From a virus, in IMG/VR virus record IMGVR_UViG_3300036770_006686, positions 1-39,125 of that record: a stretch of DNA of 39,125 nt, one strand, 5' to 3'. Shown in pieces: positions 3,254 through 18,837 of this stretch. The notes under the pieces were generated by a model that saw only the letters and a program-made list of their open reading frames with translations, made no database searches and was not told the origin of the DNA. A program made the position numbers and the translations under genes. Position 1 is the stretch's first letter. The number at the start of each line of letters is the position of its first letter.

Positions 3254-3850
3254 CTAAATTTTCTTTTTCCAACCCAAACTTGGTCTCTTATCAAAAGCAA
3301 AATCGGGATAAAAAGGACCATTTTTGTTAATATAATGAAAAAATCCTTGTATCTGATAGCTCTTTTCGGGAGCAACAAACGGGTCTCTCCAATGCTCAAC
3401 TTCACATCCTTTATATATGAGCAAATCTCCAATATTTTGTATTACTTTAATTTCCGTTTGATTACGACCCTGGACGTACATAGACCATCTAAGATCTGGA
3501 AGATCTGAGTAGTTGTATCCGAAACACACCGTGGTGCTAATTTCGCAACTTTCACGATCTTTATGTTTATCTAGTGTCATGCCAGGTCTATATACTCTGT
3601 AATAGGAATAGGTCGGACATAATTCTAAACCGGTGTTTTTTTCCATGTAAGGCTGTAAAAAGTGCAACATTGTTTCCATTAATGTATCTGCATAAACAGA
3701 ATGCGCACCTTTTACTTGATCATCACTTGCATCAAATTCTGTTGATTCTTTCAACAAAGCATATGATGTGATTATCTTACACAAGAATTTAGGTATAATT
3801 TCCGGTACATGTACATACCCGTTATTAATAAAATATTCTACATTATTCAT
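3254..3850 (-). CDS. 2-oxoglutarate/Fe(II) oxygenase-like protein (Ox A)
   Basis: This 198-residue protein has the double-stranded beta-helix pattern of non-haem Fe(II) oxygenases. YRVYRPGMTLDKHKDRES provides the HxD pair (His96, Asp98), and GDLLIYKGCEVEHWRDPF provides the distal His153 followed by an arginine two residues later. Such enzymes couple 2-oxoglutarate decarboxylation to substrate oxidation, usually hydroxylation. The full set of iron ligands is present, so activity is plausible; the substrate is unknown. It is the last gene of a four-gene minus-strand run (Ox C, DUF6065-like, Ox B, Ox A). Its ATG overlaps the Ox B stop as ATGA, pointing to translational coupling. Confidence 0.85.
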   Translation of the reverse strand: MNNVEYFINNGYVHVPEIIPKFLCKIITSYALLKESTEFDASDDQVKGAHSVYADTLMETMLHFLQPYMEKNTGLELCPTYSYYRVYRPGMTLDKHKDRESCEISTTVCFGYNYSDLPDLRWSMYVQGRNQTEIKVIQNIGDLLIYKGCEVEHWRDPFVAPEKSYQIQGFFHYINKNGPFYPDFAFDKRPSLGWKKKI

Positions 3851-4635
3851 TTAAATGGTGGTCCTAGGCTCCAAGCCACTAAACTATATCTCGTCCCGGA
3901 CGTAACCGGAGTTACCTGATGTATTACATGAGACGGAAAAACTACTATAGATCCTCTTGGTCTAATTTCCTTACAAGTATGATATCTATTATCCCCTCTA
4001 TGGGGCCCTAAATCGAATCTAAGGTTACCCCCTTTATAAGTTTTAGGATCCGACAAACTCAATGTCATACTCAATTTTCTAATTTTCCCTATCATATTAG
4101 GATTAATCGTTGCGGTCATGTCTTCTGGCATTTGATTTCCGAAAGTATCAAGTGCTGGATTTCCGAATTCATCAATATGTAATTTATCTTCTTCGGGATT
4201 AAACTGACGATAGGGCTTGCTCTGTGAGTCTGCATGCCAACCGTAGAATTGTCCTTTGTCGTATTTCGTAAATTGTAAATCTTCAGTGAAATTCCAATCA
4301 AAATTCCAACCTGCATTTTTATTTGCTTCGTGTATGAATGGCCAAATTATTTCATAAATCTTTCTGTCATTAAGCCATGAAACTTTAGAGTCTCTGACAT
4401 AAACTTTATCTAAATCCACACCCTGTCTTTTTAAAGCCTGTTGCGATTTAGAATTAGAAGGCATATCGGAAACCTTGGTTTTTTGTTTCCATCCTCCCAC
4501 GGATCCTAGAGATATTTCTTCTCCGAATTTTTTTTCTTGCTCGACCATTGATTCTATGCCTGCTTCTATAATACTGTCGCAGATGTGATCTGGTATAGCA
4601 GATTTAAAAAACCAATAATAATATTCAAGTACCAT
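3847..4635 (-). CDS. 2-oxoglutarate/Fe(II) oxygenase, prolyl-hydroxylase-like (Ox B)
   Basis: This 262-residue protein matches the PKHD/prolyl 4-hydroxylase-like oxygenases common in T4-like marine phages. The start YYYWFFKSAIPDHICDSII is typical of the group. The active site is complete: His134-x-Asp136 in YGWHADSQ, His239 in FPSHVIHQVTP, and the 2-oxoglutarate-binding Arg249 in SGTRYSLVAW. An unusually long loop (about 140-185, RQFNPEEDKLHIDEFGNP and following) sits between the HxD and the next core strand. No Shine-Dalgarno precedes the ATG; instead a TTAAATA sequence lies 4 bases upstream. The gene ends in an ATGA overlap with Ox A. The substrate is not deducible, but this is one of the most clearly intact oxygenases of the island. 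Confidence 0.9.
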   Translation of the reverse strand: MVLEYYYWFFKSAIPDHICDSIIEAGIESMVEQEKKFGEEISLGSVGGWKQKTKVSDMPSNSKSQQALKRQGVDLDKVYVRDSKVSWLNDRKIYEIIWPFIHEANKNAGWNFDWNFTEDLQFTKYDKGQFYGWHADSQSKPYRQFNPEEDKLHIDEFGNPALDTFGNQMPEDMTATINPNMIGKIRKLSMTLSLSDPKTYKGGNLRFDLGPHRGDNRYHTCKEIRPRGSIVVFPSHVIHQVTPVTSGTRYSLVAWSLGPPFK

Positions 4636-4702
4636 AATATATTTAAGTCAAATTACGATGGTGATCTCAGCATCGATGATTACGCTATTAGGAAAGTCAT
4701 TT

Positions 4703-5488
4703 TTAAGAATTATCAAAATTATCTCTGATTAATTTTTTTGCTTGATCCTTAAAAGTTTTTCCGTCTCTGTTATAACTTTTTTTACATAGGTACTGCCATG
4801 CAGAAGTTATATATCTATCCTTATCGGTGGCCTGCTCGATTCTAAGATCGACATCTAATTTTTTAGGGATCGGAATGTACTGACACAGTGGTGTTCCTGC
4901 TTTGATGAGAACCTTTTCATTTTTTTTGTGCCACATGAGTTGTACGTTTACTTCGATGGACGAATCTCCGTCTAAAATTCCGTGCACCGCTGTAAAAATA
5001 TTATGATCAGGATACGGTATAGGAATCTGGAGTAATGCAATATCTGGAGACATTGATACCTTCCATCTAGTATTAACTTTAATTACTGTAGACAAGGTAT
5101 CTTGTCTGAATGGCATAAAATTATAAAGTTGATCTTTCGAATGTCCGTCTATGTACGGCTGATTGTCTAATTGATAATTAACCGGACATTCCCATTCAAA
5201 TATACCTCGTTCGTTGCTATCGTTTCTAGTGGTAATCACGAAATCGATCGGTGCCGGGACGATAAACCCGACTTTAAATAAACCCAAAATTCCTGGACAT
5301 TTACTTACAGTATTGAAACTTTTTGTTACTTCAGTGTTATTTTTTACTGCGTCCCGATAATCTAAGGCTGCTTGGCGAATCCAATCTGTTCGTAATTCTT
5401 TAGTTTGAATTATAGGGTGAACCGATTCGACACCGGGCATCAGATTGGTAAATCTAACAAAAGGTTTCTTTTTTTTAAAAAACATCAT
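4703..5488 (-). CDS. DUF6065-like protein, copy 1
   Basis: This 261-residue protein has no assigned function. It shares a layout with the protein at 16551-17288. Each has a KCP motif in the first half (SKCPGILG here), a PAPIDF/KAPFDL strand, a second-half LLQxxxP segment with aromatic residues, and an ending of the form hydrophobic strand, then VLIKAGTPLCQYIPIP here versus IVIKKGDALSYYRFI there. The pattern resembles the uncharacterised DUF6065 family as I know it; this is a recollection, not a search. The fold looks all-beta. It lies between Ox B and Ox C, and its start overlaps the Ox C stop, so it is co-translated with oxygenases. Its sister is sandwiched between two halogenases, so the family tracks this chemistry. 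Confidence 0.6.
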   Translation of the reverse strand: MMFFKKKKPFVRFTNLMPGVESVHPIIQTKELRTDWIRQAALDYRDAVKNNTEVTKSFNTVSKCPGILGLFKVGFIVPAPIDFVITTRNDSNERGIFEWECPVNYQLDNQPYIDGHSKDQLYNFMPFRQDTLSTVIKVNTRWKVSMSPDIALLQIPIPYPDHNIFTAVHGILDGDSSIEVNVQLMWHKKNEKVLIKAGTPLCQYIPIPKKLDVDLRIEQATDKDRYITSAWQYLCKKSYNRDGKTFKDQAKKLIRDNFDNS

Positions 5489-6096
5489 CTAAAAACGGCT
5501 CCATGAACATGTCCGATTACAATATTTTTTGTTCCGCTTAAAACAGGTTTGATTCTGTATGTCATGAATGAAGGAAAAACAATTATACTTCCTGGCTCGT
5601 TTAAATCAACCGACCCCGGGTCTAAATTAAGAAATTCTAATTCTCCTCCGGTGTATTCGTTTTGATTAGAAAGATTAATCACGTAAGAAAGTTTTCTAGA
5701 CGGTGCAGCAGGATTTAAATCCATATGCCACTCGTAGTAATCATTAACTTCGTATTTAAAAATTTGCGGATAATCTTGATCAATTATTCCAAGCAAATTG
5801 AAGTCATACACTTCGGTGTTGATTGTTTTTGTTGCAAGCCTAATGTCGTTAAACGGAAAACCTTCGAGATCCCCCCTTAATTTTTGTCGCAAACATTTAT
5901 GTAAATTTTCGTCCCCGGTGACCTTTATCGGTAACCAAAGTTCTTCTATACATTCTTTCAAAATAGATAAACATTGTTCTTCGTTGAATAGAGAACTTTT
6001 GTTTATAGACGATATTTCTAGCGAAGCCATTTTTGTCTGCAAAAATTCAGAACTTTGTCCAAAATCCTCATCTTTAAAATCTTCTATTTCAGCCAT
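5485..6096 (-). CDS. 2-oxoglutarate/Fe(II) oxygenase-like protein with altered active site (Ox C)
   Basis: This 203-residue protein aligns in pattern with the C-terminal core of Ox B. HxD is present (His124, Asp126 in YYEWHMDLN), as are the GGELEFL strand and the final HVHGAVFR. The distal iron ligand is missing: where Ox B has FPSHVIHQVTPVTSGTR, this protein has FPSFMTYRIKPVLSGTK. The expected histidine is Tyr180 (codon TAC, one base from CAC) and the 2-oxoglutarate-binding arginine is Lys190. The reading frame is otherwise intact, so it is either catalytically dead but retained, or uses a different metal site. A CGGAG ribosome-binding site lies 8 bases before the ATG. It heads the minus-strand run and is divergent from Ox D. 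Confidence 0.85.
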   Translation of the reverse strand: MAEIEDFKDEDFGQSSEFLQTKMASLEISSINKSSLFNEEQCLSILKECIEELWLPIKVTGDENLHKCLRQKLRGDLEGFPFNDIRLATKTINTEVYDFNLLGIIDQDYPQIFKYEVNDYYEWHMDLNPAAPSRKLSYVINLSNQNEYTGGELEFLNLDPGSVDLNEPGSIIVFPSFMTYRIKPVLSGTKNIVIGHVHGAVFR

Positions 6097-6141
6097 TGCG
6101 ATCTCCGTTTCATAAGTTAAAAAAGTACTTTAGAATTTTAG

Positions 6142-6151: not shown

Positions 6152-6162
6152 GTTGATAAAGT

Positions 6163-6783
6163 ATGCATAGAATAGATATTATGAAAAGCTACATTCCCGA
6201 TTTGGTTGAATCCACAGTTAGTTTAACTGTATTAGAAAAGACTCATATTGAAGAATTTGTGCTATCTCACCAATTTCCCTGGTATTATCAGGGTCAACAA
6301 ACTTTTTATGAAAATAAAAATTTTATCCCAGCGGACGTAAGACCGCATATTGAGTACGTTAACTCTCCTTTTTTTAGTCATACTTTACTCATACGATCAG
6401 AAAATCCAATCGATCACCATTCGAGAAAAATAAAAGAATTTAGTGCTCATTACGAATTCTTTTTTGAAATTTTTCATCGTTGGACCGTAGAAAATAATAT
6501 CAATTACACTAAAATTTTTAGGGCAAATTTAAATCAAACATGGTTTAATGGTCATTTGCATACCGAACCGCATCTAGATCACGAATGGTCTCATAAAAAT
6601 TTTATAATGTATCTTACTGACTTTGACGAAGGGCAAACTATATTATTCTCTGATGACTTTCAAACACTATTTTATCTGACGCCTAAAAAATATACAGCAA
6701 TATCTTTTAATTATAGATATCATGCTCACCGATTTCCTAAAGTCGGCCAGAGAAGAGTAGTTTTTGTTGTGACTTATATATAG
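6163..6783 (+). CDS. 2-oxoglutarate/Fe(II) oxygenase-like protein (Ox D)
   Basis: This 206-residue protein has a small phage 2OG oxygenase pattern shared with Ox E and Ox J: a start region with HQFPWYY, then FRANLN, the HxD pair in EPHLDHEW (His137, Asp139), the LTDFDEGQTILF strand pair, LTPKKYTAISF, the distal His187 in YHAHRF, and RR at 197-198 for 2-oxoglutarate. All key residues are present. The ATG at 6163 gives 206 residues; an ATG at 6181 (MKSYIPDL) is an equally good start, as neither has a strong ribosome-binding site. Hal1 follows after 9 bases, so the oxygenase and halogenase are co-transcribed. The substrate is unknown. Confidence 0.85.
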   Translation: MHRIDIMKSYIPDLVESTVSLTVLEKTHIEEFVLSHQFPWYYQGQQTFYENKNFIPADVRPHIEYVNSPFFSHTLLIRSENPIDHHSRKIKEFSAHYEFFFEIFHRWTVENNINYTKIFRANLNQTWFNGHLHTEPHLDHEWSHKNFIMYLTDFDEGQTILFSDDFQTLFYLTPKKYTAISFNYRYHAHRFPKVGQRRVVFVVTYI

Positions 6784-6792
6784 AAGGAATTT

Positions 6793-8313
6793 ATGAAACT
6801 AATTATCGTAGGAGGCGGAACCGCGGGATGGATCACAGCTTTAATGGCATGTAAAAGATTTCCTGACCTTGATATCACTGTGATAGAATCGAGCGAGATA
6901 GGAATAATAGGTGTGGGAGAGAGTACCACCGGCGAATTTACAAAATTTATTTCCAATTTCTGGCACGACTTTGGCTGCGATCATGACGAGTTTATGAAAG
7001 AAACCGGCGCCACTATTAAATACGGAATCTTACACAAGAATTGGAAAGGTAATAATGATTCTTATTTCGCTCCTATTGATGGGAGCTATACGTCTAATTT
7101 AATCCCTGATGCTTTTTTAGCCCACCTAGTAACTAATAATCTTAAACCCTTATATCCAACGGCAAGTCGCTTGGGGTATCTTTATGAAAATAACAAAATT
7201 AATTATAGTAAAACCAAAAATCAATTCTCGATAAGATCACATGCGATGCACATCGACGGAAATAAAACAAGTGCTTATTTAAAAAAGATTGCTTGTAAGA
7301 ATAAAAACGTAAAAGTTGTAGACGGAAAAGTAGCCGATGTAACATTTAATTCTTTAGGCTTTATACAGAATTTAATTCTTTCGGATAATAGAATTATCGA
7401 AGGAGATTTTTTCATCGACTGTAGCGGTTTTTCTAAAGTTTTAATTAGTAAGTTTAAAACTCCATGGTATTCTTATAGGCAAAACTTACCTTTAAACAGC
7501 GCATTGCCTTTCCAGACAAAATATAAAGACAAAGAATGTCCCGAGCCCTTTACAACTGCATGGGCCCAAGATTCTGGCTGGATGTGGACCACACCATTGG
7601 CCGATAGAAAAGGTAACGGTTATGTATTTTTTGATTTATGTTCGAGTCCGGATCAAGCACAAAAAGAAATAGAAGATAAATTGAATCAAAAAATAGATCC
7701 GATTAAGTTATTGAAATTTGAAGCAGGGCGTTTTAAAAATTCGTGGAATAAAAATTGTTTAGCTATAGGATTTAGTTTTTGTTTTTTAGAACCATTAGAA
7801 GCAACTGCTATTCATTCTATAATAATTCAAGCCTATACTTTTATTTTTGAATACCTTAAAATATCTTTAGTAGAAACAGTAAATGAAGGATCTATAAATT
7901 TTTACAATAAAAGAATCAATCATCTTTACGACGCTTTCCGAGATTTTATTGTGCTTCATTATTTAGGAAAAAGATCAGATACTGTATTTTGGAATTTTTA
8001 TAAAAACGAATGTGTGATTCCGGAGCGTGTTAAACATTTAATTGAAATGTCTTCTTGTAGATTTCCTACTATGTATGATTTTGAAATCTTGAATGGTACT
8101 GTAGGATGGCCTTTGTATTCTTACATATTAACTGGCTTAGATTTGATTCCTAAAAGTGTCGCTAGAGATTCTTTAGAAGTGACGATGCCAACCGGCATTA
8201 ATTTAAAAGATGCTGCTAGAGAAGAATACATAAGAATGCAAGACATGTGGAAAGCCGAATCTCAAGATTTTTATACTTGCGAAGAATTTTATAAAATATT
8301 TTATAGGAAATAA
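6793..8313 (+). CDS. Flavin-dependent tryptophan halogenase-like protein (Hal1)
   Basis: This 506-residue protein has the length and motifs of the PrnA/tryptophan-halogenase family. It has the FAD-binding GGGTAGW at 7-13, GVGEST at 40-45, Lys76 in TGATIKYG (aligned with catalytic Lys79 of PrnA), FFIDCSGF, and EPLEAT with Glu336 aligned with PrnA Glu346. Family members use FADH2, O2 and halide to make HOCl, which is guided to an aromatic substrate. The diagnostic WxWxIP is WMWTTP (263-268), so the isoleucine is replaced by threonine. The residue after the catalytic glutamate is Ala rather than Ser. AAGGA precedes the ATG. It is followed after 2 bases by Hal2, its closest relative here, suggesting tandem duplication. 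The substrate could be free tryptophan, a peptide or something else. Confidence 0.9.
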   Translation: MKLIIVGGGTAGWITALMACKRFPDLDITVIESSEIGIIGVGESTTGEFTKFISNFWHDFGCDHDEFMKETGATIKYGILHKNWKGNNDSYFAPIDGSYTSNLIPDAFLAHLVTNNLKPLYPTASRLGYLYENNKINYSKTKNQFSIRSHAMHIDGNKTSAYLKKIACKNKNVKVVDGKVADVTFNSLGFIQNLILSDNRIIEGDFFIDCSGFSKVLISKFKTPWYSYRQNLPLNSALPFQTKYKDKECPEPFTTAWAQDSGWMWTTPLADRKGNGYVFFDLCSSPDQAQKEIEDKLNQKIDPIKLLKFEAGRFKNSWNKNCLAIGFSFCFLEPLEATAIHSIIIQAYTFIFEYLKISLVETVNEGSINFYNKRINHLYDAFRDFIVLHYLGKRSDTVFWNFYKNECVIPERVKHLIEMSSCRFPTMYDFEILNGTVGWPLYSYILTGLDLIPKSVARDSLEVTMPTGINLKDAAREEYIRMQDMWKAESQDFYTCEEFYKIFYRK

Positions 8314-8315: not shown

Positions 8316-9893
8316 ATGAAAATTGTAATAGTGGGCGGCGGAACCGCTGGTTGGGCAACTGCATTGATGGCTGCTAAAAGGCATCCTAACCACGAAATCA
8401 CCGTAATCGAATCGTCTAAAATTGGGGTGATAGGTGTAGGAGAGAGCACCACTGGAAGAATGACTGATGTTTTAAACAATTTTAGATATGATTACGGCTG
8501 CGATCATAATGAATTTATCGCAGAAACCGGCGCCACATTGAAATATGGAATTCAACACAAGGGTTGGACCAAGAACATCGATGATTACTATATTGGCCCT
8601 ATAGATGGTAGCTGGACCAGTGATAAGAGACCCGATGTTTTATTTGCTTATGGGTTAAACAAGCTGACAGACAAAGAGCTAATAAAGGTTTCTCTTTGCG
8701 GTTATTGGACATATCACGGATACAGTAATTTTAACAAAGAAAATAAAGATTTTGTATCATTAGGTGATGCAAGTGGATTTACTTCTTCTTACAGGCATGC
8801 GATGCATGTCGATGCACATTTAGTAGGTCAGTATTTCAAAAAGGTTTGTTTACGAAATGATAACGCTAAACACATTGATACTGAAGTAGTTGATGTTGTA
8901 CTAAATTCGACCAATGGTTTTATCAAAGCGCTAGTGCTGTCATCAGGCGAAATTATTGAGGGCGATTTTTTTATAGACTGTACAGGATTTAAAAAGCTAT
9001 TAATTAATAAACTGGGCGCAAAATGGGTTAGTTATCAAAAATATCTTCCTGTTAATACCGGTCTACCTTTTCAACTGAAATATCAAGAAAACGAAATGCC
9101 CAAACCATATACCACTGCATGGGCTCAAAAATTTGGGTGGATGTGGCAAATACCATTAATGGATCGAATTGGTTGCGGCTATGTTTTTTCAGACGCATTT
9201 ACAACAGTTGATCAAGCTCACAAAGAGATTGAACAAAAACTGGGGCGAGAGATAGAACCTATCAAAGTAATAAAATTTAACACGGGCAGGCAAGAAGAGT
9301 CTTGGATAAAAAATTGTTTAGCCATTGGTTTAAGTTCAGCATTTTTAGAACCATTAGAAGCCACATCTATTCATACAACGATAGTTCAAGCTGATCGTTT
9401 TGTTATGGAGTTTCTAAAGAATACATTGGAGGATACCGTTAACGAGGGATCTATAAACTTATTCAACAATCGAACCGCTCAAATTTTCGACGACACAAGA
9501 GATTTTATCGTTTTACATTACATGGGAGATCGAGACGATAGTGAATTTTGGAGATTTATAGGTACAGGAGTTACTCAAACTGATTTTGTTAAGAATATTC
9601 TATCAATGTCAAAGTCTAGATTGCCGACTGCGAATGACTTTCCATCGTATGCAGGATCTGCAGGTTGGCCATTGTACAGCTATGTATTAGCGGGAATTAA
9701 AAAACTCGATAAAGAAAAAGTAATCAACGAACTTAATTTTGAAGTTCACTCAAATCAAATTAAAAATTTAACAGTCGAGGCATTTCATGACTTACAATAT
9801 AAATGGCATAAAGATATGAAAAACAATATGACCTATGACGAATTTATAAATTATTTTAGAGAATTGAGAAGAGTAAATGGCATATCTAATTAA
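8316..9893 (+). CDS. Flavin-dependent tryptophan halogenase-like protein (Hal2)
   Basis: This 525-residue protein carries the complete halogenase signature set: GGGTAGW at the N terminus, GVGESTTG, Lys76 in TGATLKYG, FFIDCTGF, canonical WMWQIP at 275-280, and EPLEAT with Glu348. It is clearly paralogous to Hal1; both share long stretches such as the CDHxEF and KETGAT/AETGAT regions, TTAWAQ, and IHxTIxQA. It is the copy of that pair with the standard WxWxIP, so it is the better candidate for an active halogenase. AGGAAATA precedes the ATG, which lies 2 bases after the Hal1 stop. Its 3-prime end overlaps Ox E by 17 bases. No flavin reductase gene is adjacent, so reduced flavin must come from elsewhere. 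Confidence 0.92.
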   Translation: MKIVIVGGGTAGWATALMAAKRHPNHEITVIESSKIGVIGVGESTTGRMTDVLNNFRYDYGCDHNEFIAETGATLKYGIQHKGWTKNIDDYYIGPIDGSWTSDKRPDVLFAYGLNKLTDKELIKVSLCGYWTYHGYSNFNKENKDFVSLGDASGFTSSYRHAMHVDAHLVGQYFKKVCLRNDNAKHIDTEVVDVVLNSTNGFIKALVLSSGEIIEGDFFIDCTGFKKLLINKLGAKWVSYQKYLPVNTGLPFQLKYQENEMPKPYTTAWAQKFGWMWQIPLMDRIGCGYVFSDAFTTVDQAHKEIEQKLGREIEPIKVIKFNTGRQEESWIKNCLAIGLSSAFLEPLEATSIHTTIVQADRFVMEFLKNTLEDTVNEGSINLFNNRTAQIFDDTRDFIVLHYMGDRDDSEFWRFIGTGVTQTDFVKNILSMSKSRLPTANDFPSYAGSAGWPLYSYVLAGIKKLDKEKVINELNFEVHSNQIKNLTVEAFHDLQYKWHKDMKNNMTYDEFINYFRELRRVNGISN

Positions 9894-10521
9894 AAACGTC
9901 GGGGAAGAAATTTTAGAAATTTCGAATGTTATTCCCGAAAGCTATCAAGAAAATATAATTTCTAAAATACAAGGCATTAATCATTTTCCATGGTTTTCTC
10001 TGCATAAAATCGGGCACCCTGATTTTTTTTCTAAAGGTGAATCGGTTCCCTACACAGATACTAACATTACTGACGAAGTTGGGTTTTTTCATATGGTATT
10101 TGACGGAAAAAATTTCTCTCCGTTCTTTGATTTCTTTTACCCTATCCTAACATTTTTAGAAGAAAAAGTTTCTATAAAGGTAAAAAATTTGTTAAGAATA
10201 CGTATTCGATACACACATCCTTGCAGCAATCATTCATTATCTAAGTATGCACCACCACATGTTGATTATCCTTCGTCCAATCCGTATTATACTTTAATAT
10301 ACTATGTTGAAGACAGCGACGGGGATACGATTTTATTTGATAAATTTTACGATGAAACACAAGAATACAATCCTCTAGAGGATTATAAATTTAAAGAACT
10401 ATACAGATTTACTCCTAAGCAAGGTTCCGCTATATTTTTTAATGGCCATAGATATCACTCCGGAAATTATCCGGTCAACTATTCTAGTAGGATAGTAATT
10501 AATTTTGATTTCGAAATATGA
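9877..10521 (+). CDS. 2-oxoglutarate/Fe(II) oxygenase-like protein (Ox E)
   Basis: This 214-residue protein belongs to the same small oxygenase group as Ox D and Ox J. The core shows the HxD pair in APPHVDYP (His128, Asp130), IYYVEDSDGDTILFD, RFTPKQGSAIFFNG, the distal His194 in HRYHSGNYP, and Arg205 in SSRIVINF. All iron and co-substrate positions look intact. The GAGAAGAG ribosome-binding site lies inside the end of Hal2, which it overlaps by 17 bases, and its own stop overlaps the Ox F start as ATGA. This places it in one tight Ox D-Hal1-Hal2-Ox E-Ox F transcript. The role is probably hydroxylation; the substrate is unknown. Confidence 0.88.
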   Translation: MAYLIKNVGEEILEISNVIPESYQENIISKIQGINHFPWFSLHKIGHPDFFSKGESVPYTDTNITDEVGFFHMVFDGKNFSPFFDFFYPILTFLEEKVSIKVKNLLRIRIRYTHPCSNHSLSKYAPPHVDYPSSNPYYTLIYYVEDSDGDTILFDKFYDETQEYNPLEDYKFKELYRFTPKQGSAIFFNGHRYHSGNYPVNYSSRIVINFDFEI

Positions 10522-11174: not shown

Positions 11175-11782
11175 AAATTAAATGATATAGATATTCGTTC
11201 ATCTTTATGTTCTTGAGTGTTATTTTGCTCAACATAATGCGATAAATGCCCGGGAAACAAGAGTAATAATCCAGGAAAGGGATATATCCAATGTTCAGTA
11301 TTGACTTCCGGATTATCGATTTTTAAATGATTATTTGCAAATTCTTTTTGGATATGATGCATTCTATCATATTCGTTAACTGATCTTACAAATACAATAC
11401 GACCACTATCTGTCGGTACCTGAAGATAAAAAACTCCGGAAAGAAACGCACCGGCGTGAATATGTTCTCTGTTAAAAGTGTTTTTGGGATTAATGTTATA
11501 CCAATAACTCACATTATTCATATTACAAGGTATATTCCATAATTTTCCAACTTCTTTGGCTGCTGGTTTGATAAAATTTTCAAATAAGATTCTTACGAAT
11601 CTATTATCGTAGATTTTGAAGTCTACAGTTTGAAAACCACCGACATTACTTTTTTGTACTCTTGTATTAGAGTATATGTTTCTTATATTTTCAACCTCTT
11701 TCAATAAATCGTCTTGGTGCGGCCATTCGATATAAGTAGTAATGCAAGAAGTTTTAAATAGTATTGTTTCTTGTAATTGCAT
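11171..11782 (-). CDS. Putative 2OG-Fe(II) oxygenase, 2OG-FeII_Oxy_5 type (Ox G)
   Basis: This is a 203-residue protein starting at the ATG complementary to 11780-11782. The frame stays open to 12019, but that extension is the antisense of the Hal3 FAD-binding region and reads as low-complexity sequence, so it is not included. The core matches the TIGR02466/Pfam 2OG-FeII_Oxy_5 pattern: REHIHAGAFLSGVFYLQVP with an HxH pair (His107, His109), FPGHLSHYVE with His182, and DERISISFNF with Arg196. HxH in place of HxD is shared with Ox H and Ox I. The start is only 16 bases from the divergent Hal3 start. No Shine-Dalgarno is seen; a TTAAATA lies 5 bases upstream of the ATG. Confidence 0.82.
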   Translation of the reverse strand: MQLQETILFKTSCITTYIEWPHQDDLLKEVENIRNIYSNTRVQKSNVGGFQTVDFKIYDNRFVRILFENFIKPAAKEVGKLWNIPCNMNNVSYWYNINPKNTFNREHIHAGAFLSGVFYLQVPTDSGRIVFVRSVNEYDRMHHIQKEFANNHLKIDNPEVNTEHWIYPFPGLLLLFPGHLSHYVEQNNTQEHKDERISISFNF

Positions 11783-11798: not shown

Positions 11799-13262
11799 AT
11801 GAATAAAATGGATAAAATTATTGTAGCAGGCAGCGGAACAGCTGGGTTTGTAACGGCACTTATTTTAAAAACAAGATTTCCTCGGTCTGAAATTTCTATC
11901 GTAAGATCTAAAAAAATCGGAATAATCGGTGTCGGTGAAGGATCGACTGAGCATTGGAACGAATTTATGCAATATATCGGGGTACCATTTACATCTGTAA
12001 TAAAATATTGCGATGCCACGTTTAAGTGTGGTATAATGTTTAAAAATTGGAGTGATTTAGACTACATGCATAGTATCGGTCCGGAAAACGAAATTAAAAA
12101 CGGACAGTATCCTATGATTTATGGAAAGCATATCGCAGAAGGAGTGTCAAACAAGTATATGAATCCCAGTTTATCCTGGGAAAGCAAAGTCTATTCTTTG
12201 CATTTAGATCCGAAAGAAGCACCTCCATATAATCAATATCATTTCAATACCCATAAATTAAATGATTTTTTAACTAAAATTTGTGAACTGAAGAATATAG
12301 ATATTTTTGATGACGAAATTGTAGATGTTATTTTAAATGAGCAAGGCGAAATAAAGTGTCTTAAATCTATTGATAAAGAGTATCATGCAGATTTTTTCAT
12401 CGATAGTACAGGTTTTAATAGATTGCTGATTTCTAAATTAGGTGGAAAATGGCAATCTTATAACAAATACCTAAAAATGAAATCAGCAATAGTATTTCCT
12501 CAGCCTTCTACAGATATTTTAAACATGTATACAACAGCCACAGCAATGGATTATGGTTGGATGTTTAACATTCCTGTGTGGGATCGTAGCGGCAACGGTT
12601 ATATTTTTGACAGCGATCACATCACAGCAGATCAAGCCCAACAAGAAGTAGAAAATTTATTAGGAAAAAAAATCGAAATAGGAAAACAAATTAATTTCGA
12701 TCCGGGTGCCTTAGACAAAGTATGGATAAAAAATTGTTGCGCAGTAGGTCTAGCTGCAAGTTTTGTAGAACCTCTAGAAGCATCATCTATCGGTACGAGC
12801 ATACAGCAAGCATTTTTATTGATGCACCGACTTCCTAATTACGATGAAAAAACTATAGAAAAATATAACAGAGCAGTAGAAAATATATTAACTAATATTA
12901 GAGATTTTGTATTTTTACATTACATAACCAAAAAAGATCATAATCAATTTTGGAAAGAAGTTAAAAATATTAGATGGCCAGAATTTTTAGAAGAAAATAT
13001 TCCTAGATGGAGGCATAACTTGCCTATAGCCGACGATTTTTCTCTCGATACCGATTATGTCTTGTTTAGGGACTCCCATTATTTGCAAATTCTTCACGGG
13101 CTTAGATTTTTTAATCGAGAAAGCATTAGAGAAGAATATTCGGTACAACATGAAGCCAATAAAAAGAGAGCCGAAGATTTTATACGAACTACCAGGACAC
13201 AAGAAAAAATTGAACAATCTGTCGACCATAGAGAGTTTATAGGTCGAATAAGAAATCTCTAA
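11799..13262 (+). CDS. Flavin-dependent tryptophan halogenase-like protein (Hal3)
   Basis: This is a 487-residue protein from the ATG at 11799 (MNKMDKIIV); the ATG at 11808 also fits. An upstream ATG at 11742 would run through the divergent Ox G start and adds no family sequence. Halogenase motifs are the FAD-binding AGSGTAGF, GVGEGSTEHW, Lys76 in CDATFKCG, FFIDSTGF and VEPLEASS with Glu327. It departs from the consensus in several places: the dinucleotide motif has Ser and ends in Phe rather than Trp, and WxWxIP is WMFNIP (254-259), so the second tryptophan is phenylalanine. It stands alone between two minus-strand groups: divergent from Ox G with 16 bases between, convergent with Ox H with a 4-base overlap. 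The substrate is unknown. Confidence 0.88.
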   Translation: MNKMDKIIVAGSGTAGFVTALILKTRFPRSEISIVRSKKIGIIGVGEGSTEHWNEFMQYIGVPFTSVIKYCDATFKCGIMFKNWSDLDYMHSIGPENEIKNGQYPMIYGKHIAEGVSNKYMNPSLSWESKVYSLHLDPKEAPPYNQYHFNTHKLNDFLTKICELKNIDIFDDEIVDVILNEQGEIKCLKSIDKEYHADFFIDSTGFNRLLISKLGGKWQSYNKYLKMKSAIVFPQPSTDILNMYTTATAMDYGWMFNIPVWDRSGNGYIFDSDHITADQAQQEVENLLGKKIEIGKQINFDPGALDKVWIKNCCAVGLAASFVEPLEASSIGTSIQQAFLLMHRLPNYDEKTIEKYNRAVENILTNIRDFVFLHYITKKDHNQFWKEVKNIRWPEFLEENIPRWRHNLPIADDFSLDTDYVLFRDSHYLQILHGLRFFNRESIREEYSVQHEANKKRAEDFIRTTRTQEKIEQSVDHREFIGRIRNL

Positions 13263-13855
13263 TTGTAATTAATAGCTACAGAAATTCTAGGATCCTCGTT
13301 GGATCCTGCTTCTACCATGTGTCTAAGATAAGATCGAAAAATTAAAAGTTTACCTTCAACTGCTTCGTACTTGATCCTAGTAAAACTTAGATTATTCTTA
13401 GGCTTAATATTTTTTAAAGGATACATGTCTGGTTCTTTAGGATCTTCAAATACTATAGAACCGGATCCCTGCGGTGCAGAAATATAGTACACTGCACTTA
13501 TGATACTATCATTATGTGTATGAAATTCCTGAAATTGATTTTTTTCTGCAATATTAAGCCATGATCCTCTGATTTTATACTGTGCGGTAGAATTGTGTGC
13601 TTTTGAATATTCGTGAACATGCATATCGATAATGTTCAATAACGGTTTAAATTTTAGATCTCTTGTGAGATCTAAAGTTCCGTGAGTATTATAAGTTCCT
13701 CCGTACCAATCATCACCACCGTTAGGAACTTTATTTTGTAAAGTTAAACAATATTCTTTTAAATTTTGATTTTCGGTATGATCAAGTAAATTATCAACAG
13801 TATATATAGATACCGGAAACCATAGTTCAATTTTTGCTAATTGGCTCATACTCAT
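13259..13855 (-). CDS. Putative 2OG-Fe(II) oxygenase, 2OG-FeII_Oxy_5 type (Ox H)
   Basis: This 198-residue protein is of the TIGR02466/2OG-FeII_Oxy_5 type. LWFPVSIYTVDNL is the typical start of the family. The core has SWLNIAEKNQFQEFHTHND with His112 and His114, SAVYYISAPQGSGSIVFEDP, LLIFRSYLRHMVE with His179, and DPRISVAINYN with Arg190. The conserved strands and the three histidines suggest a functional iron site. It is the last gene of the minus-strand run Ox J-Ox I-Ox H and overlaps Ox I by 29 bases. Its TAG stop is shared in a CTAA with the convergent Hal3 TAA. Substrate unknown; many relatives in marine phages are likewise uncharacterised. Confidence 0.85.
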   Translation of the reverse strand: MSMSQLAKIELWFPVSIYTVDNLLDHTENQNLKEYCLTLQNKVPNGGDDWYGGTYNTHGTLDLTRDLKFKPLLNIIDMHVHEYSKAHNSTAQYKIRGSWLNIAEKNQFQEFHTHNDSIISAVYYISAPQGSGSIVFEDPKEPDMYPLKNIKPKNNLSFTRIKYEAVEGKLLIFRSYLRHMVEAGSNEDPRISVAINYN

Positions 13856-14444
13856 CTGCCCATATATTAAAAGATATTGCGATCCTGTCTTCGCTAGAAC
13901 GATTAAATTCTACTGAATGCTCCAACCATGGTTCAAACATTATCATTTCTCCCTCTTTAGGTGTATATTCGACGTAATGATAGTTATATTCATTGTTGGT
14001 TTTTCTTAATCTTTGAAAAAATGTATTCGTTACTCTTCGTGTACTAACAGGATTATAAAATCTGAGATTACCGCTATTTTCAGGTACCTTTATGTAAAAC
14101 ACTCCGCTTAATATTGCACCAAAATGATCGTGCTTGATAAAAAAAGAGTTAGGTGGATACAATTGCAACCAAGAAGTAATTTCTATAAAACATTTGGGGT
14201 CGTAACCTAATAAATTAAAAAATTCTCGTGTTCTTTGAGATATTTCCTTAGATACTAGATCTGCATTCAAAGATCCTAAAAAGTTTTGATTGTCATAAAA
14301 TGTGGTTTTTAATTCTCCCATTGGCAAATCAGGGATCTCGGTTTTTTGAATATATGTTTCGACTTTGTTTTTTATATCGTTAAATGATTCATCAGATAGT
14401 GTTGTAGTGTAAACAGGGATGGGAAAAATATGATCTAATTTCAT
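13827..14444 (-). CDS. Putative 2OG-Fe(II) oxygenase, 2OG-FeII_Oxy_5 type (Ox I)
   Basis: This 205-residue paralogue of Ox G and Ox H begins with the family-typical HIFPIPVYTTTLSDE. The metal site is in FFIKHDHFGAILSGVFYI (His105, Asp106, His107), with WLEHSVEF (His176) and DRIAISFNIWAD (Arg187). The central LRFYNP and MIMFEPW strands complete the jelly-roll. It starts in an ATGA overlap with Ox J upstream and overlaps Ox H by 29 bases at its end, so the three oxygenases form one coupled unit. The C-terminal extension after the last strand (EYEPISKN) lies in the overlap. Function is inferred from the fold only. Confidence 0.85.
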   Translation of the reverse strand: MKLDHIFPIPVYTTTLSDESFNDIKNKVETYIQKTEIPDLPMGELKTTFYDNQNFLGSLNADLVSKEISQRTREFFNLLGYDPKCFIEITSWLQLYPPNSFFIKHDHFGAILSGVFYIKVPENSGNLRFYNPVSTRRVTNTFFQRLRKTNNEYNYHYVEYTPKEGEMIMFEPWLEHSVEFNRSSEDRIAISFNIWADEYEPISKN

Positions 14445-15037
14445 GACTGAAACAAATTTAAATTAAAAACAATTCTACGATTATTAACTATCGGATTACT
14501 TGCTGTATGATATTGCAAACCGTCGATCCAAACTAATCTATTAGCCTTGGGAGTTACTTGATTTTCTATTGTAAAATCTTTTTGAGCTATGCCTGTTTTT
14601 ATACCGGTCATGGTGTAGTACTGATCGAAAATTCTAGTATCGCCATCGGAATCATTGATATAATATATCATAGTGTGATGTGGAAAATAGTAATCTATGT
14701 GAGGTAAATTGTAATTGATATCTTTGAACCCTATTTTTGGTACTTTCATACTGAATCTAGCTCGAAGAATATCCGATTCCGAAAATCCAAACTCCGTTTC
14801 AATTTTTTTAAAAAATGCCGACATAGTTTCGTATGTAAAACTTCTAACATTCCATTCTCTATCGAAAAGTATATGATTAAATCCGGGCGTTTCTATAGCC
14901 AATGTATCTTCAATATTATTATCTTCAGGGTTTAAAGAAGCATGTTCTATATAGAACCAAGGAAAATCTTTAGACATAACTATGCGTTGAAGTTCTAAAA
15001 AGTCCTTTTGGTTTAAAAAGTTATCTATTACTTTCAT
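14441..15037 (-). CDS. 2-oxoglutarate/Fe(II) oxygenase-like protein (Ox J)
   Basis: This 198-residue protein is of the Ox D/Ox E type. DFPWFYIEHA near residue 30 matches the HQFPWYY region of Ox D. NLPHIDYYFPHHTMIYYINDSDGDTRIFD carries His113-x-Asp115, LVWIDGLQYHTASNP carries the distal His177, and NNRRIVFNLNLF carries Arg187/Arg188. All key residues are present. It leads the minus-strand oxygenase run (J, I, H). A CATAAATA box lies only 7 bases upstream of the ATG and no ribosome-binding site is present, so its message could be nearly leaderless. It is divergent from Hal4, with 53 bases between the starts. Confidence 0.87.
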   Translation of the reverse strand: MKVIDNFLNQKDFLELQRIVMSKDFPWFYIEHASLNPEDNNIEDTLAIETPGFNHILFDREWNVRSFTYETMSAFFKKIETEFGFSESDILRARFSMKVPKIGFKDINYNLPHIDYYFPHHTMIYYINDSDGDTRIFDQYYTMTGIKTGIAQKDFTIENQVTPKANRLVWIDGLQYHTASNPIVNNRRIVFNLNLFQS

Positions 15038-15044
15038 GGCGAAT

Positions 15045-15090: not shown

Positions 15091-16554
15091 ATGAAAATTA
15101 AATCTTTAACCATAGTAGGAGGCGGCACAGCAGGATGGCTTGCTGCTGCATTTCTTTCATACAATCATAAAGAGCTTAAGATAAATCTCATAGATAAAGA
15201 CGTACCTACACCAATTGGGGTTGGAGAGGCTACATTGCTTACTTTTAGAGGCTTTTTAGAGGAATCCGGATTCGACATTAGTGAATGGTTTATCGATCTC
15301 GACGCCGGTTATAAATCCGGAATAATGTTCTCTAACTGGTCTAAAAAAGGCCATGATATATGGCACCCGTTTATGAAGGGAAATAGAAATTTAAATGATC
15401 AGATAATGACTTGGGATGCATGGTCTTTAAATCAAGATTTAGATTTTAAGAAATATTGTTTAGGCATGCACGATAGTTCGGTTATTCACAATACCGTTGA
15501 CATGAACAGTATTGAATCATATGCCTATCATGTAGATTGCGGTAAGCTAACAAAGTTTATTAGAGAAAAAATTAAAAATAAAATAAATTTAATTTATTCT
15601 GATGTAGTAAACATTGACAAAACAGAAAATAACATCGAAAGGTTATTTTTAAAGAACGGTCAGATTATCGAATCAGACTTATTCTTAGACTGTACTGGTT
15701 TCTTAAGTCTTTTAAAAGAATCTAAAAAGATAGATTTATCTGATCGATTGTTTGTAAACACAGCAGTAGTATGTCCGATACCTTACAAAAATAGGAAAGA
15801 AGAATTTAAACCGTATGCGATATGCGAAGCAGTTGATCACGGCTGGATATGGAAAATAGGTGTTAATTCGAGAATCGGTTCCGGAATGGTATTTAATCGA
15901 AATATCACAGATATCGATGAAGCCAAACGTTATTTCGTTGATCATTGGGATCATAGAATTTCCGTCGATAATGTAAGACACATAAATTGGGATCCGTTTT
16001 ATGTCGAGGATCAATGGGCCGGCAATATCGTTAGTATCGGTCTAAGCTCAGGATTTATAGAACCATTAGAAAGTACTTCGATAGGGTTAATGACATACTC
16101 TATCGCCATGCTTAGTAATTCTATCAAAGAGTCGTATATTACAGATCTCGATATAAAAGTTTATAATAATAATATGATGTTGACTTACGAGGATTGCATT
16201 GATTTTGTTTCGGCTCATTATGCGAACAATGAAAGAACCAGTGATTTTTGGAATTATGTAAGACGTACATTTGTTCCGTCGTCTAGAATGAATCATCATG
16301 TCGAATTATTATTAGATGAAAATGCTAGCCTTAGGCATTCATCGAGATGGAACTATATGTTCGGTAACGGAAATTGGATTTTGTTGTTGCAACAATTAGG
16401 GTATCCTATCTCCCCAAGAAAAATAAATCTACCCAACGAAAATGTCAGAGAATTTCTTATAAGAAGCTATATCGAACATGAAAAAAATAGGCATATATGG
16501 AGTAGACATCATAGCACAGAAGTGGACAGACTACACGAAACATATAAAAAATGA
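15091..16554 (+). CDS. Flavin-dependent tryptophan halogenase-like protein (Hal4)
   Basis: This 487-residue halogenase-family protein shows GGGTAGW at the N terminus, IGVGEATLLTF, Lys75 in DAGYKSGIMF (PrnA Lys79 position), LFLDCTGF, and IEPLESTSIG with Glu327 followed by the family-typical Ser. WxWxIP reads WIWKIG (252-257): both tryptophans are kept but the proline is replaced by glycine. Hal4 and Hal5 both keep EPLEST, unlike Hal1-3 (EPLEA). The gene begins the last plus-strand run of the island, and its stop overlaps the DUF6065-like gene start as ATGA, implying coupled translation. The ribosome-binding site is weak. The substrate is unknown; the altered motif may change the active-site tunnel or its specificity. 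Confidence 0.9.
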   Translation: MKIKSLTIVGGGTAGWLAAAFLSYNHKELKINLIDKDVPTPIGVGEATLLTFRGFLEESGFDISEWFIDLDAGYKSGIMFSNWSKKGHDIWHPFMKGNRNLNDQIMTWDAWSLNQDLDFKKYCLGMHDSSVIHNTVDMNSIESYAYHVDCGKLTKFIREKIKNKINLIYSDVVNIDKTENNIERLFLKNGQIIESDLFLDCTGFLSLLKESKKIDLSDRLFVNTAVVCPIPYKNRKEEFKPYAICEAVDHGWIWKIGVNSRIGSGMVFNRNITDIDEAKRYFVDHWDHRISVDNVRHINWDPFYVEDQWAGNIVSIGLSSGFIEPLESTSIGLMTYSIAMLSNSIKESYITDLDIKVYNNNMMLTYEDCIDFVSAHYANNERTSDFWNYVRRTFVPSSRMNHHVELLLDENASLRHSSRWNYMFGNGNWILLLQQLGYPISPRKINLPNENVREFLIRSYIEHEKNRHIWSRHHSTEVDRLHETYKK

Positions 16555-17288
16555 TAGAAATAAATTGGTCTTTTATAACTAACTCTGCTGGATCTATAGA
16601 TCATGACAGCCTAATCGAACCTTTATTAGATCAAGATTATGAACCATTAAGTCCTTTAATAAAGGATATAGTAAAAACTAGAAAAGGCGTAGTATATTTA
16701 AAATGTCCGGCTACAACTGATTTTATAAAAAATGTTTTTGTTTTCAAAGCACCCTTTGATTTAACACTAGAGATCGATGTAGATGACAAATCCGGAAATG
16801 GAAAAATTGTCTGCGAAAATATTTCTCAAAACATTTTTTCAAAAATCATAGATACAAGATTTTTATTTGATGATCAAAGAGGAATTAATCCTTATCCTAT
16901 GCTAGGAATAGATTGGATGTTAATGTTCCAATCTAATTACCCTGTGCTACTTCAATCGTTTCCTGCTTTTTTTCATAGGTCGGATTTCGTTAATAAAACT
17001 ATGGTAGTACCTGGCGAATTTGATATAAGCAAATGGACAAGACCAGTTGAGCTTGTTTTTGAAGTAAAAAATCTAAAAGAAAAAATAGTTATCAAGAAGG
17101 GCGATGCCCTTTCTTATTATAGATTTATTTGTGATGATAAAATTAAATTAGTTAAACAACCTACACCTTGGAATGAAAGTCAGCAATGTGCTGAAATAGT
17201 AAATAAATCTAAATTTAGACCATTGAAAGAAAGATATGAAGCACTTTCAAAATTAAAACTGAGTTGCTCTTATGACCATAAAAGTTGA
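16551..17288 (+). CDS. DUF6065-like protein, copy 2
   Basis: This 245-residue, mostly beta protein has no assigned function. Visible landmarks are YLKCPATTDFIKNVFVFKAPFDL (about 60-82), NPYPMLGIDWMLMFQ (about 120-134), MVVPGEFDISKWTRPVELVF and IVIKKGDALSYYRFI (about 184-198). The last block resembles bacterial proteins annotated DUF6065 as I recall them. It is a remote paralogue of the gene at 4703-5488. Translation is coupled at both ends: an ATGA overlap with Hal4 and a 17-base overlap with Hal5. Sitting between two halogenases, it is a good candidate for a partner, substrate carrier or substrate-recognition subunit, but that is inference from position. Confidence 0.65.
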   Translation: MIEINWSFITNSAGSIDHDSLIEPLLDQDYEPLSPLIKDIVKTRKGVVYLKCPATTDFIKNVFVFKAPFDLTLEIDVDDKSGNGKIVCENISQNIFSKIIDTRFLFDDQRGINPYPMLGIDWMLMFQSNYPVLLQSFPAFFHRSDFVNKTMVVPGEFDISKWTRPVELVFEVKNLKEKIVIKKGDALSYYRFICDDKIKLVKQPTPWNESQQCAEIVNKSKFRPLKERYEALSKLKLSCSYDHKS

Positions 17289-18837
17289 CAAAATAATTAT
17301 TGTAGGAGGAGGATCGGCAGGTTGGATGACTGCTGCTTCTCTGGTAACCCAATTAAAAAACAAAGAAATTTATGTAATAGAATCACCAAATATTCCAACT
17401 GTAGGGGTGGGTGAAAGCACTGTGGGAGGTATAAGGGGATGGTTACGAATGGTAGGAATTCGAGACTCTGACTTTATTTCTCATACCGATGCTAGTTATA
17501 AATTGGCCATTAGATTTAATAATTTCTATAATGAAAAAGGTGGAACTTGGTATTACCCGTTTGGAAGACCTTATTTAAAAGAAAATCTCCATGGAAGAGA
17601 CGACTGGTTTATAAAGAAAGCGATCTATCCCGAAACCCCTACAGATGATTATGTGACCTCTATGTATTCTCAAATGGCTTTAGTGCATGCTAACAAGATC
17701 TGCACAAATAATCCGGATTTAGATGGTTTTGATTTTTATAACGACACTGCATTTCATTTCGATGCTGCTAAAATGGGAGCTTGGTTGCGGGATTATCATT
17801 GTATACCAAAAGGTGTAAAATTAATTAGAGATACAGTAAAAGAAATTTACACAGACCAGAATGGAATTTCTAGTTTATTATTAGAATCAGGACAAACAAT
17901 AAATGCAGATCTGTACGTAGATTGCACTGGATTTAAATCTCTGTTGTTAGGTGGTGCTTTAAAAGAACCCTTCGATGATTATCAACATATACTGCCTAAT
18001 AACAGAGCGTGGGCGACCAGGATTCCGTATACCGATAAGGAAAAACAACTAAATTCAGTTACCGATTGCACTGCGTTAGATATAGGTTGGGTTTGGAACA
18101 TACCTTTATGGAGTCGGATAGGAACAGGATACGTTTACAGTGATAAGTATATCGACCCAGTAAGCGCTCTTAACAAATTTAAAAAATATTTGGTCGATAA
18201 AAATCTGTGTATCGACGAAGCAGAATTTCGTGACATCGAGATGCGGGTTGGAAAGCACAAAAGATTATTTGTAAAAAATGTAGTAGCATTAGGTCTAAGT
18301 GCCGCATTCATAGAACCTCTTGAAAGCACAGGTTTATTGACTACTCATGAATTCGCTAGAAGTCTATGTAATATTTTAGTAAGAGATCATGTTAGCCAGT
18401 GGGATCGAGATGAATTTAATCTTAAGTGCGAGGACGAATTTAATTATTGGGTTCAATTCGTATCTATGCACTATGCACTTAGTCACAGGATCGATTCTGA
18501 ATATTGGAGAGACATCGGACAAAAATCGTATGTAGCATTATCTCCTCGGATTAGTAATTTCCAGACTCAGAGTTTATATTATCAAACATTAAATCATAAA
18601 AGTTTTATCAAATTTTTCCAAGACGATGATGGAATAAATTGCCTAGCAGCCGGAATGAATTACAATGCCAACGATATTGTAACCTTAAACAATATATTTC
18701 CGGTTGGTACAGATCTTAAACACGAGTTCGATATCATGATTAGAAAATTAGAATTTAGAAAAAGAAAATGGAAAGAGGCTGTAAAAACAGCCCCTTCATT
18801 ATATCAATTTTTATTGAATAGTTATTTTAATACTTGA
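17272..18837 (+). CDS. Flavin-dependent tryptophan halogenase-like protein (Hal5)
   Basis: At 521 residues this is the most canonical halogenase in the window. It has GGGSAGW near the N terminus, GVGESTVGG, Lys77 in TDASYKLAIRF (PrnA Lys79 position), YVDCTGF, WVWNIP at 273-278, and IEPLESTG with Glu351. EPLESTG is exactly the motif that in PrnA supplies the catalytic Glu346 and the chloride-site Thr-Gly. The family makes a chlorinating or brominating lysine adduct from FADH2, O2 and halide, acting on an indole or other aromatic. It begins 17 bases inside the preceding gene. It ends in an 11-base convergent overlap with the first glycine-rich adhesin gene, marking the edge of the enzyme island. 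Confidence 0.94.
   Translation: MTIKVDKIIIVGGGSAGWMTAASLVTQLKNKEIYVIESPNIPTVGVGESTVGGIRGWLRMVGIRDSDFISHTDASYKLAIRFNNFYNEKGGTWYYPFGRPYLKENLHGRDDWFIKKAIYPETPTDDYVTSMYSQMALVHANKICTNNPDLDGFDFYNDTAFHFDAAKMGAWLRDYHCIPKGVKLIRDTVKEIYTDQNGISSLLLESGQTINADLYVDCTGFKSLLLGGALKEPFDDYQHILPNNRAWATRIPYTDKEKQLNSVTDCTALDIGWVWNIPLWSRIGTGYVYSDKYIDPVSALNKFKKYLVDKNLCIDEAEFRDIEMRVGKHKRLFVKNVVALGLSAAFIEPLESTGLLTTHEFARSLCNILVRDHVSQWDRDEFNLKCEDEFNYWVQFVSMHYALSHRIDSEYWRDIGQKSYVALSPRISNFQTQSLYYQTLNHKSFIKFFQDDDGINCLAAGMNYNANDIVTLNNIFPVGTDLKHEFDIMIRKLEFRKRKWKEAVKTAPSLYQFLLNSYFNT

Follow-up and report, generated by a model that had tools for sequence, protein, structure and literature searches.

A conserved island of halogenase and 2-oxoglutarate oxygenase genes beside glycine-rich tail genes in a T4-like marine phage: a possible virion-decoration cassette

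Cyanophages and pelagiphages are among the most abundant marine viruses, and the large number of halogenase and 2-oxoglutarate (2OG) oxygenase genes in their genomes has been put down to antibiotics, DNA repair or nitrogen signalling, though these ideas were left untested. Published readings of the cyanophage genes comprise antibiotic protection, DNA repair, 2OG/NtcA signalling and host metabolism (PMC2984593, PMC3037559, PMC9146016, PMC9964418). The halogenase VirX1 is reported to iodinate diverse small molecules in vitro (PMC6864650). Here we analysed a linear virus record of 39,125 bases (IMG/VR record IMGVR_UViG_3300036770_006686; the whole of this stretch is called the window), in which 17 consecutive genes at positions 3254-18837 form a 15.58-kb island, with the coordinates and the gene count that an earlier note on this DNA had given. 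The island comprises five flavin-dependent (Trp-type) halogenases, ten 2OG/Fe(II) oxygenase homologues and two proteins of putative dUTPase-fold type (D proteins), with no other genes between them. The background assumed in the earlier note, single 2OG oxygenases and occasional halogenases in such phages, understates what has been described, since up to 24 2OG genes are cited for the cyanophage S-SCSM1 in PMC9964418 and smaller islands occur in syn9, S-RIM44 and S-CREM1. The island adjoins genes for three glycine-rich (Gly-rich) proteins, and the enzymes most likely modify these tail-tip proteins of the phage itself, a reading to which we give roughly even confidence. The genes of the island, hereafter named by their first coordinate, are as follows.

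3254..3850, minus strand: 2OG/Fe(II) oxygenase, PHROG name 'ferrochelatase' (phrog_2954), with a predicted prolyl-4-hydroxylase-like fold; by motif, AlphaFold (AF2) model and Foldseek
3847..4635, minus strand: 2OG/Fe(II) oxygenase (PF13640, E 3e-13); HxD..H..R in 46 of 47 homologues
4703..5488, minus strand: putative dUTPase-fold protein (phrog_7084), homologue of syn9 gp43; by predicted fold and weak profile match
5485..6096, minus strand: 2OG/Fe(II) oxygenase homologue (PF13640, E 5e-9) with Tyr180 in place of the distal His
6163..6783, plus strand: 2OG/Fe(II) oxygenase (phrog_274, 'DNA endonuclease V'); HxD..H..R conserved, 141 profile hits common with 9877 and 14441
6793..8313, plus strand: flavin-dependent halogenase 1 (PF04820, E 7e-98); catalytic Lys and Glu present
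8316..9893, plus strand: flavin-dependent halogenase 2 (PF04820, E 3e-99), sister of halogenase 1 in the tree
9877..10521, plus strand: 2OG/Fe(II) oxygenase (PF13640, E 1.5e-4, below cut-off; phrog_274, E 4e-28; motif)
10518..11174, plus strand: DUF6445-type 2OG oxygenase (PF20043, E 7e-10; phrog_1644, 'minor coat protein'); HND..H..R in 26 of 27 homologues
11171..11782, minus strand: 2OG/Fe(II) oxygenase with an HxH motif (PF13759, E 4e-20); start corrected
11799..13262, plus strand: flavin-dependent halogenase 3 (PF04820, E 3e-91)
13259..13855, minus strand: 2OG/Fe(II) oxygenase with an HxH motif (PF13759, E 1e-21; motif)
13827..14444, minus strand: 2OG/Fe(II) oxygenase (PF13759, E 2e-21; TIGR02466 over cut-off)
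14441..15037, minus strand: 2OG/Fe(II) oxygenase (phrog_274, E 1e-31; PF13640, E 0.012; motif)
15091..16554, plus strand: flavin-dependent halogenase 4 (PF04820, E 3e-85), of a divergent clade in the tree
16551..17288, plus strand: putative second member of the 4703 superfamily (phrog_17480), whose gene overlaps that of halogenase 5; 4 profile hits common with 4703
17272..18837, plus strand: flavin-dependent halogenase 5, VirX1 type (PF04820, E 1.5e-105; VirX1 6QGM, E 3.5e-100)

The island is compact: 15,462 of its 15,584 bases (99%) are coding, no gap exceeds 67 bp, and start and stop codons repeatedly overlap by 4 bp. After revision of the start sites, oxygenase 11171 begins at 11782 and halogenase 3 at 11799 or 11808, so that these two genes do not overlap. 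Viral contigs of IMG/VR carry most of the island set in the same order, at 40-70% protein identity. The order common to these relatives runs from GroEL and a tail chaperone through oxygenases 3254-3847-5485, halogenase 2, 11171/halogenase 3 and oxygenases 13259-13827-14441 to halogenase 4, a D gene, halogenase 5, the three Gly-rich genes, a gene with an S74 domain and the fibres, with single oxygenases and one halogenase gained or lost among them. Since the same gene set recurs in related contigs, the island is real and chance is excluded. The earlier note had taken the genes for a unit, to be given up if related loci carried them singly at random places; this was checked, and in the relatives the genes of the set are found together, at one and the same site. 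We calculated the ratio of nonsynonymous to synonymous substitution (dN/dS, Nei-Gojobori) from two closer pairs of contigs with estimable dS (L091/L092 and L010/L011), pairs that include the window being mostly saturated synonymously. The enzyme genes gave values of 0.03-0.2, on the strength of which pseudogene decay was dropped as an explanation. The island is a conserved unit under selection and no scatter of accessory genes. As for the 'dedicated modification pathway' of the earlier note, the conserved unit stands, while parallel modifiers fit better than sequential steps. A scan of viral contigs with a single protein gave no match; bacterial genomes were scanned with the 3254 family, a broad halogenase alignment being too diverse.

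All five proteins read as halogenases in the earlier note are confirmed by PF04820 (E 9e-108 to 3e-87; 287-354 bits, cut-off 21). The GxGxxG flavin motif, the catalytic Lys (RebH K79 type) and the Glu (E346 type) are invariant in the five proteins, and Lys and Glu are present in most of their homologues. Halogenases 2 and 5 have an exact WxWxIP motif, where the others read WMWTTP, WMFNIP and WIWKIG. A quick tree of 208 viral halogenases distributed the five among four well separated clades, halogenases 1 and 2 being sisters, and every clade included orthologues from the relatives. Because these four deep clades are each retained in relatives, the tree indicates that the multiplicity of halogenases is old and retained, with no recent expansion; recent tandem duplication was dropped as an explanation on the same grounds. 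None of the genes of the window was recognised as a flavin reductase.

Ten 2OG/Fe(II) oxygenases had been claimed from the sequence. Results showed that nine of them carry the complete facial triad (HxD/E or HxH and a distal His) together with the 2OG-binding Arg or Lys, and three of these nine have HxH, as do nearly all their homologues. The tenth, 5485-6096, has Tyr180 at the position of the distal iron His, and for this reason we count nine canonical oxygenases and one altered homologue. In all close orthologues of this gene (about ten) the distal His is likewise lost to Tyr, Phe or Trp, and the gene is under purifying selection (dN/dS 0.18). We therefore class its product, from its sequence, as an oxygenase homologue and not an active oxygenase; it may be a pseudo-enzyme or have an altered site, and could partner the nearby intact oxygenase 3847.

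The Pfam 2OG cut-off was exceeded by five genes (3847, 5485, 11171, 13259 and 13827). The assignment of the other five draws on the DUF6445 match of 10518, the sub-threshold matches of 9877 and 14441, PHROG families, HxD/H/R motifs, common profile hits and one predicted fold. Oxygenases 3254 and 6163, which have no significant Pfam match, are still 2OG-fold proteins. In the case of 6163 this follows from the profile hits that it has in common with other island oxygenases. For 3254, HxD/H/R is invariant among 56 homologues, and since the family profile found nothing credible among PDB sequences, its fold was predicted instead. The AlphaFold model (predicted local distance difference test, pLDDT, 92.6) has a double-stranded beta-helix fold; Foldseek returned 577 PDB matches at E<=0.001 with prolyl-4-hydroxylases on top, the best being 4j25 (template modelling (TM) score 0.65-0.69). 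PHROG families 2954, 274 and 1644, to which window genes 3254, 6163, 9877, 14441 and 10518 belong, behave as 2OG/Fe(II) oxygenase types by motif, common profile hits or fold. The locus thus flags the PHROG names 'ferrochelatase', 'DNA endonuclease V' and 'minor coat protein', which look wrong for 2OG-type proteins. The same names have been carried into many cyanophage records.

The two remaining proteins had been labelled DUF6065-like, a label that we drop: Pfam contains no family matching 4703-5488 or 16551-17288, nor, at E 1, four aligned homologues. The AlphaFold model of 4703-5488 (pLDDT 86.4) had only dUTPases as top Foldseek matches, and these were weak (TM 0.41 by query, 0.67 by target); dUTPase profiles matched at E 0.003 or weaker, and the likeness to dUTPase motifs seen by eye is limited to the surroundings of G-I-L-D and AGTPLCQ. 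Predicted fold and weak profile match thus point weakly to a dUTPase-like protein, to which 16551-17288 appears related by common profile hits. The annotators of S-CREM1 named the 4703 homologue 'triphosphate nucleotidohydrolase'. A D protein is present in 14 isolate records, within about 100 bp of a halogenase wherever positions were compared. In two loci (L038 9061-11301 and L142 15840-18047) the place next to the fibre genes that is taken by three Gly-rich genes in other phages is occupied by three tandem D genes. In four G+C-rich contigs of bacterial metagenome-assembled genomes (MAGs; L172, L174, L176 and L178) a 3254-type oxygenase is paired with a D protein outside any obvious phage context.

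The island is flanked by the following genes.

758..1048, plus strand: GroES-like co-chaperonin, read by eye; its homologue adjoins GroEL in the related contigs L090 and L091
1061..2731, plus strand: GroEL chaperonin (PF00118, E 2e-71; TIGR02348, 636 bits, over cut-off), at the same position in relatives
2777..3214, minus strand: tail assembly or tail-fibre assembly chaperone-like protein (PF16778, E 5e-13; PHROG tail fibre assembly)
18827..19957, minus strand: Gly-rich tail adhesin-type protein 1, proposed substrate (PF21722, E 1.7e-10; 31% Gly)
19970..21103, minus strand: Gly-rich tail adhesin-type protein 2, proposed substrate (PF21722, E 8e-15)
21113..22177, minus strand: Gly-rich tail adhesin-type protein 3, proposed substrate (PF21722, E 3e-10)
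22177..23178, minus strand: tail fibre-type protein with an S74 intramolecular chaperone (PF13884, E 3e-7; PHROG tail families)
31754..37243, minus strand: giant tail fibre (phrog_9851 tail fibre, E 1e-147; 102 marine phage records)

Directly downstream of the island, the three Gly-rich proteins score 41.7, 56 and 40.9 bits against PF21722 (cut-off 24.3) and carry conserved Trp, His and Tyr residues, for example in the loops GGGSW, HLGWN and FHHSGPYGG. They are followed by the S74 tail protein and then by giant fibres, which resemble those of cyanophages and pelagiphages; the open reading frame (ORF) at 23535-31709, adjoining the giant fibre, has by reading a similar repeat-type N-terminus. 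The phage group is T4-like (Straboviridae/Kyanoviridae type), because L090, a contig with the same gene order, encodes a head protein and the tail sheath stabiliser gp15 of T4 (E 3e-22) upstream of its GroES and GroEL genes; these core virion genes were read in that relative, as the window ends before them. The island sits between the gp15/GroEL side and the tail fibres. The GroES-like and GroEL genes (758-2731) stay beside the island in related contigs. The Gly-rich genes (18827-22177) have about 52% G+C, against 31-36% in the adjoining island, and are better conserved (73-78% to L010) than most island enzymes. Models of anti-phage defence gave no meaningful match.

We then asked how general this neighbourhood is. 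A tblastn search with a Gly-rich protein returned zero phage matches, probably from low-complexity filtering, and the Gly-rich genes were found with the Pfam model instead. In a set of non-redundant loci of 9 kb or more, almost all of them retrieved by searching for halogenases, a Gly-rich gene was detected in 44 of the 66 with at least three 2OG genes compared with 7 of the 39 with fewer (Fisher p 2e-6), and in those 44 loci it was always at most two genes away. The pipeline misses one oxygenase of the window, 11171, which an over-extended overlapping ORF displaced. In 11 isolate genomes having a PF21722 gene, 36 of the 104 2OG genes were found no more than 8 kb away from it, where random rotation predicts 12.4 (0 of 20,000 draws), as were 8 of the 13 halogenases (1.5 predicted; p 0.00035). 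Halogenase number also rises with Gly-rich gene number, both in untruncated loci (rho 0.65, n=35) and in isolates (rho 0.87, n=11). The pairing occurs in two layouts, GroEL-island-Gly-rich-fibres in the window and fibres-Gly-rich-chaperone-island-neck in cyanophages, and also in short contigs filed under bacterial MAGs. In two of these short contigs a carbamoyltransferase (L202 1235-2806) or a sulfotransferase (L201 2569-3336) lies between the Gly-rich gene and the 2OG genes, and S-CAM8 has a carbamoyltransferase in the same slot; these are further enzymes that add small groups. The recurring arrangement across marine phages suggests, without proving, chemical modification of the part that contacts the host.

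We consider it an even call that the island is a virion-decoration cassette of this T4-like marine phage. The observations that carry this reading are the enzyme families, their intact active-site residues, the conservation of the unit, purifying selection, adjacency and gene-number matching; from these we infer that the genes are expressed late, along with those of the tail, and which substrate and residues are modified, to what effect. In this reading the halogenases and 2OG oxygenases would act in the late phase of infection and add halogens and hydroxyls to particular residues of tail-tip proteins, the likeliest substrates being the three neighbouring Gly-rich adhesin-type proteins and the candidate residues the conserved Trp, His and Tyr of their loops. 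Modification would take place before or during fibre assembly, aided by the adjacent assembly chaperone. Each paralogue would have a residue or a Gly-rich protein of its own to act on, and the dUTPase-fold proteins would be non-catalytic halogenase partners. The benefit might be altered receptor contact, stability or escape from resistance. In favour of this, the best fold match of the oxygenase 3254 model is to peptidyl-prolyl hydroxylases, and the four halogenase clades are kept together in relatives at the low dN/dS given above. Of the three targets that the earlier note had offered, the virion fibres gain support from the adjacency of Gly-rich tail genes. As the T4 late-promoter core TATAAATA occurs 0 times in the whole window, against 6.7 expected by shuffling, a promoter test cannot support late expression; given this absence, the phage group may have a different late promoter.

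Several observations weigh against virion decoration. The chief doubt is that the island lies in a part of T4-like genomes that is variable and in which unrelated genes gather, so that the neighbourhood may partly reflect tolerated insertions, and that 68 of the 104 isolate 2OG genes lie elsewhere. No Gly-rich gene was detected in 22 of the 66 loci with 2OG islands, in some because the contig ends. A separate group of viral contigs (L098-L108, L122) has adjacent halogenase pairs whose members belong to the clades of halogenases 2 and 4, and neither 2OG nor Gly-rich genes lie near them; the isolates Mosig, S-CAM8 and S-SM1 have Gly-rich and 2OG genes without a halogenase. The loci share ancestry, and the p values, being indicative, overstate independence. 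No modified residue has been observed, and VirX1 and PrnA-type enzymes are known mainly to act on small molecules.

The likeliest of the other explanations is an assortment of host-takeover enzymes gathered in the variable region and acting on host metabolites or on 2-oxoglutarate levels, whose adjacency to the tail genes would be positional only. Variable regions are known from T4-like cyanophages, as are scattered 2OG genes; in the isolates many 2OG genes lie away from Gly-rich genes, as counted above, and 2OG modulation of NtcA has been proposed (PMC3037559). However, core genes keep an unchanged order in related contigs despite the divergence of their sequences, halogenase number tracks Gly-rich gene number, and typical host-metabolism genes are absent from the island, so that we judge this explanation unlikely.

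A distinctly less probable alternative is that a host surface protein or polymer is modified during infection, for instance to block superinfection or to change a receptor. Phage receptor or adhesin genes often lie near receptor-blocking genes, and the sulfotransferase and carbamoyltransferase of the same slot also act on glycans. However, reading of the sequence showed neither signal-peptide nor membrane genes in the island, flavin- and 2OG-dependent enzymes of the cytoplasm would have no access to the surface, and no glycosyltransferase is present.

The remaining target of the earlier note, a small molecule, fares slightly worse. PrnA makes the first pyrrolnitrin intermediate, an antibiotic-like halogenated product has been suggested for cyanophage prnA (PMC2984593, PMC9964418), and the reported activity of VirX1 cited above is on small molecules. 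On the other hand, the island, 99% of which is halogenase, oxygenase or D gene, contains no scaffold synthase, precursor peptide, transporter or resistance gene, and its ten oxygenases with no other tailoring type are unlike a biosynthetic cluster. As the island has no space left for either a scaffold or a precursor gene, we hold a small-molecule product to be unlikely; a cluster for a ribosomally synthesised and post-translationally modified peptide (RiPP) or another small molecule was dropped as a candidate for the same reason. Finally, repair or hypermodification of phage DNA by the 2OG enzymes, a repair role having been proposed for cyanophage 2OG genes (PMC9146016, PMC3037559) and PHROG calling some 'DNA endonuclease V', is highly unlikely, given Pfam matches to 2OG-FeII_Oxy_3/_5 and DUF6445 and not to AlkB or TET/JBP, the predicted prolyl hydroxylase fold of 3254, a site among virion genes and halogenases without known DNA role.

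Modification of the phage's own tail-tip proteins is thus the specific and different answer that the locus and the neighbourhood statistics across lineages give. If it is true, VirX1-type halogenases would have a natural substrate. A broader idea, that marine phages enlarge the amino-acid alphabet of their own tail-tip adhesins by dedicated halogenases and hydroxylases, a chemical and not genetic variation or hardening of the host-contact surface, we put forward more tentatively, at slightly less than even confidence. In that case a good part of the 2OG and PrnA genes that have long been a puzzle in cyanophages and pelagiphages would serve to modify the virion. In the open literature, with subscription papers outside the search, we found no link of these genes to Gly-rich tail proteins and no description of the cyanophage 2OG/halogenase cluster as a unit; the functional reading would be new if confirmed.

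Precedents for parts of this reading come from outside the marine phages. LodB, GoxB and QhpG are flavoproteins, themselves not halogenases, that oxidise Trp within a protein, a precedent in the superfamily for action on protein-bound Trp; their profiles match halogenases 4 and 5 weakly and fall far short of the cut-off (E 5e-4 to 1e-6), and the match is for the most part to the flavin-binding regions. The Gly-rich proteins of the window resemble the T-even gp38 adhesins in Gly-rich motifs flanking variable loops, tail location and an assembly chaperone nearby, a likeness of sequence motifs and location. To our knowledge, T-even phages have no modification enzymes beside gp38. In those phages gp38 is a Gly-rich protein at the fibre tip whose loops contact the receptor (PMC12892980).

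Among marine phages, the nearest relative of halogenase 5 with a solved structure is VirX1 of Cyanophage Syn10 (PDB 6QGM), with identical active-site residues, and the VirX1/syn9 homologue has a D-type partner gene alongside, as in the window; halogenase 5 is, however, only about 38% identical to the syn9 homologue, and the window adds four halogenases from other clades. The pelagiphages HTVC008M, Mosig and HTVC033P have a block of 2OG genes beside a PF21722 gene, as in the window; Mosig and HTVC033P are without halogenase, and HTVC008M has one by its terminase genes. The clusters of syn9 (gp41-gp61), S-RIM44, S-CREM1 and P-TIM40, like the window, combine one or more halogenases, a D protein and several 2OG genes beside Gly-rich tail genes. 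Those clusters have at most two halogenases, with their genes on one strand and in a neck-side layout, whereas the window has 5+10+2 genes in strand-alternating blocks, with GroES/GroEL. Taken together, the components (VirX1, cyanophage prnA and cyanophage 2OG genes) were already known, and the island is a new, extreme variant of their arrangement.

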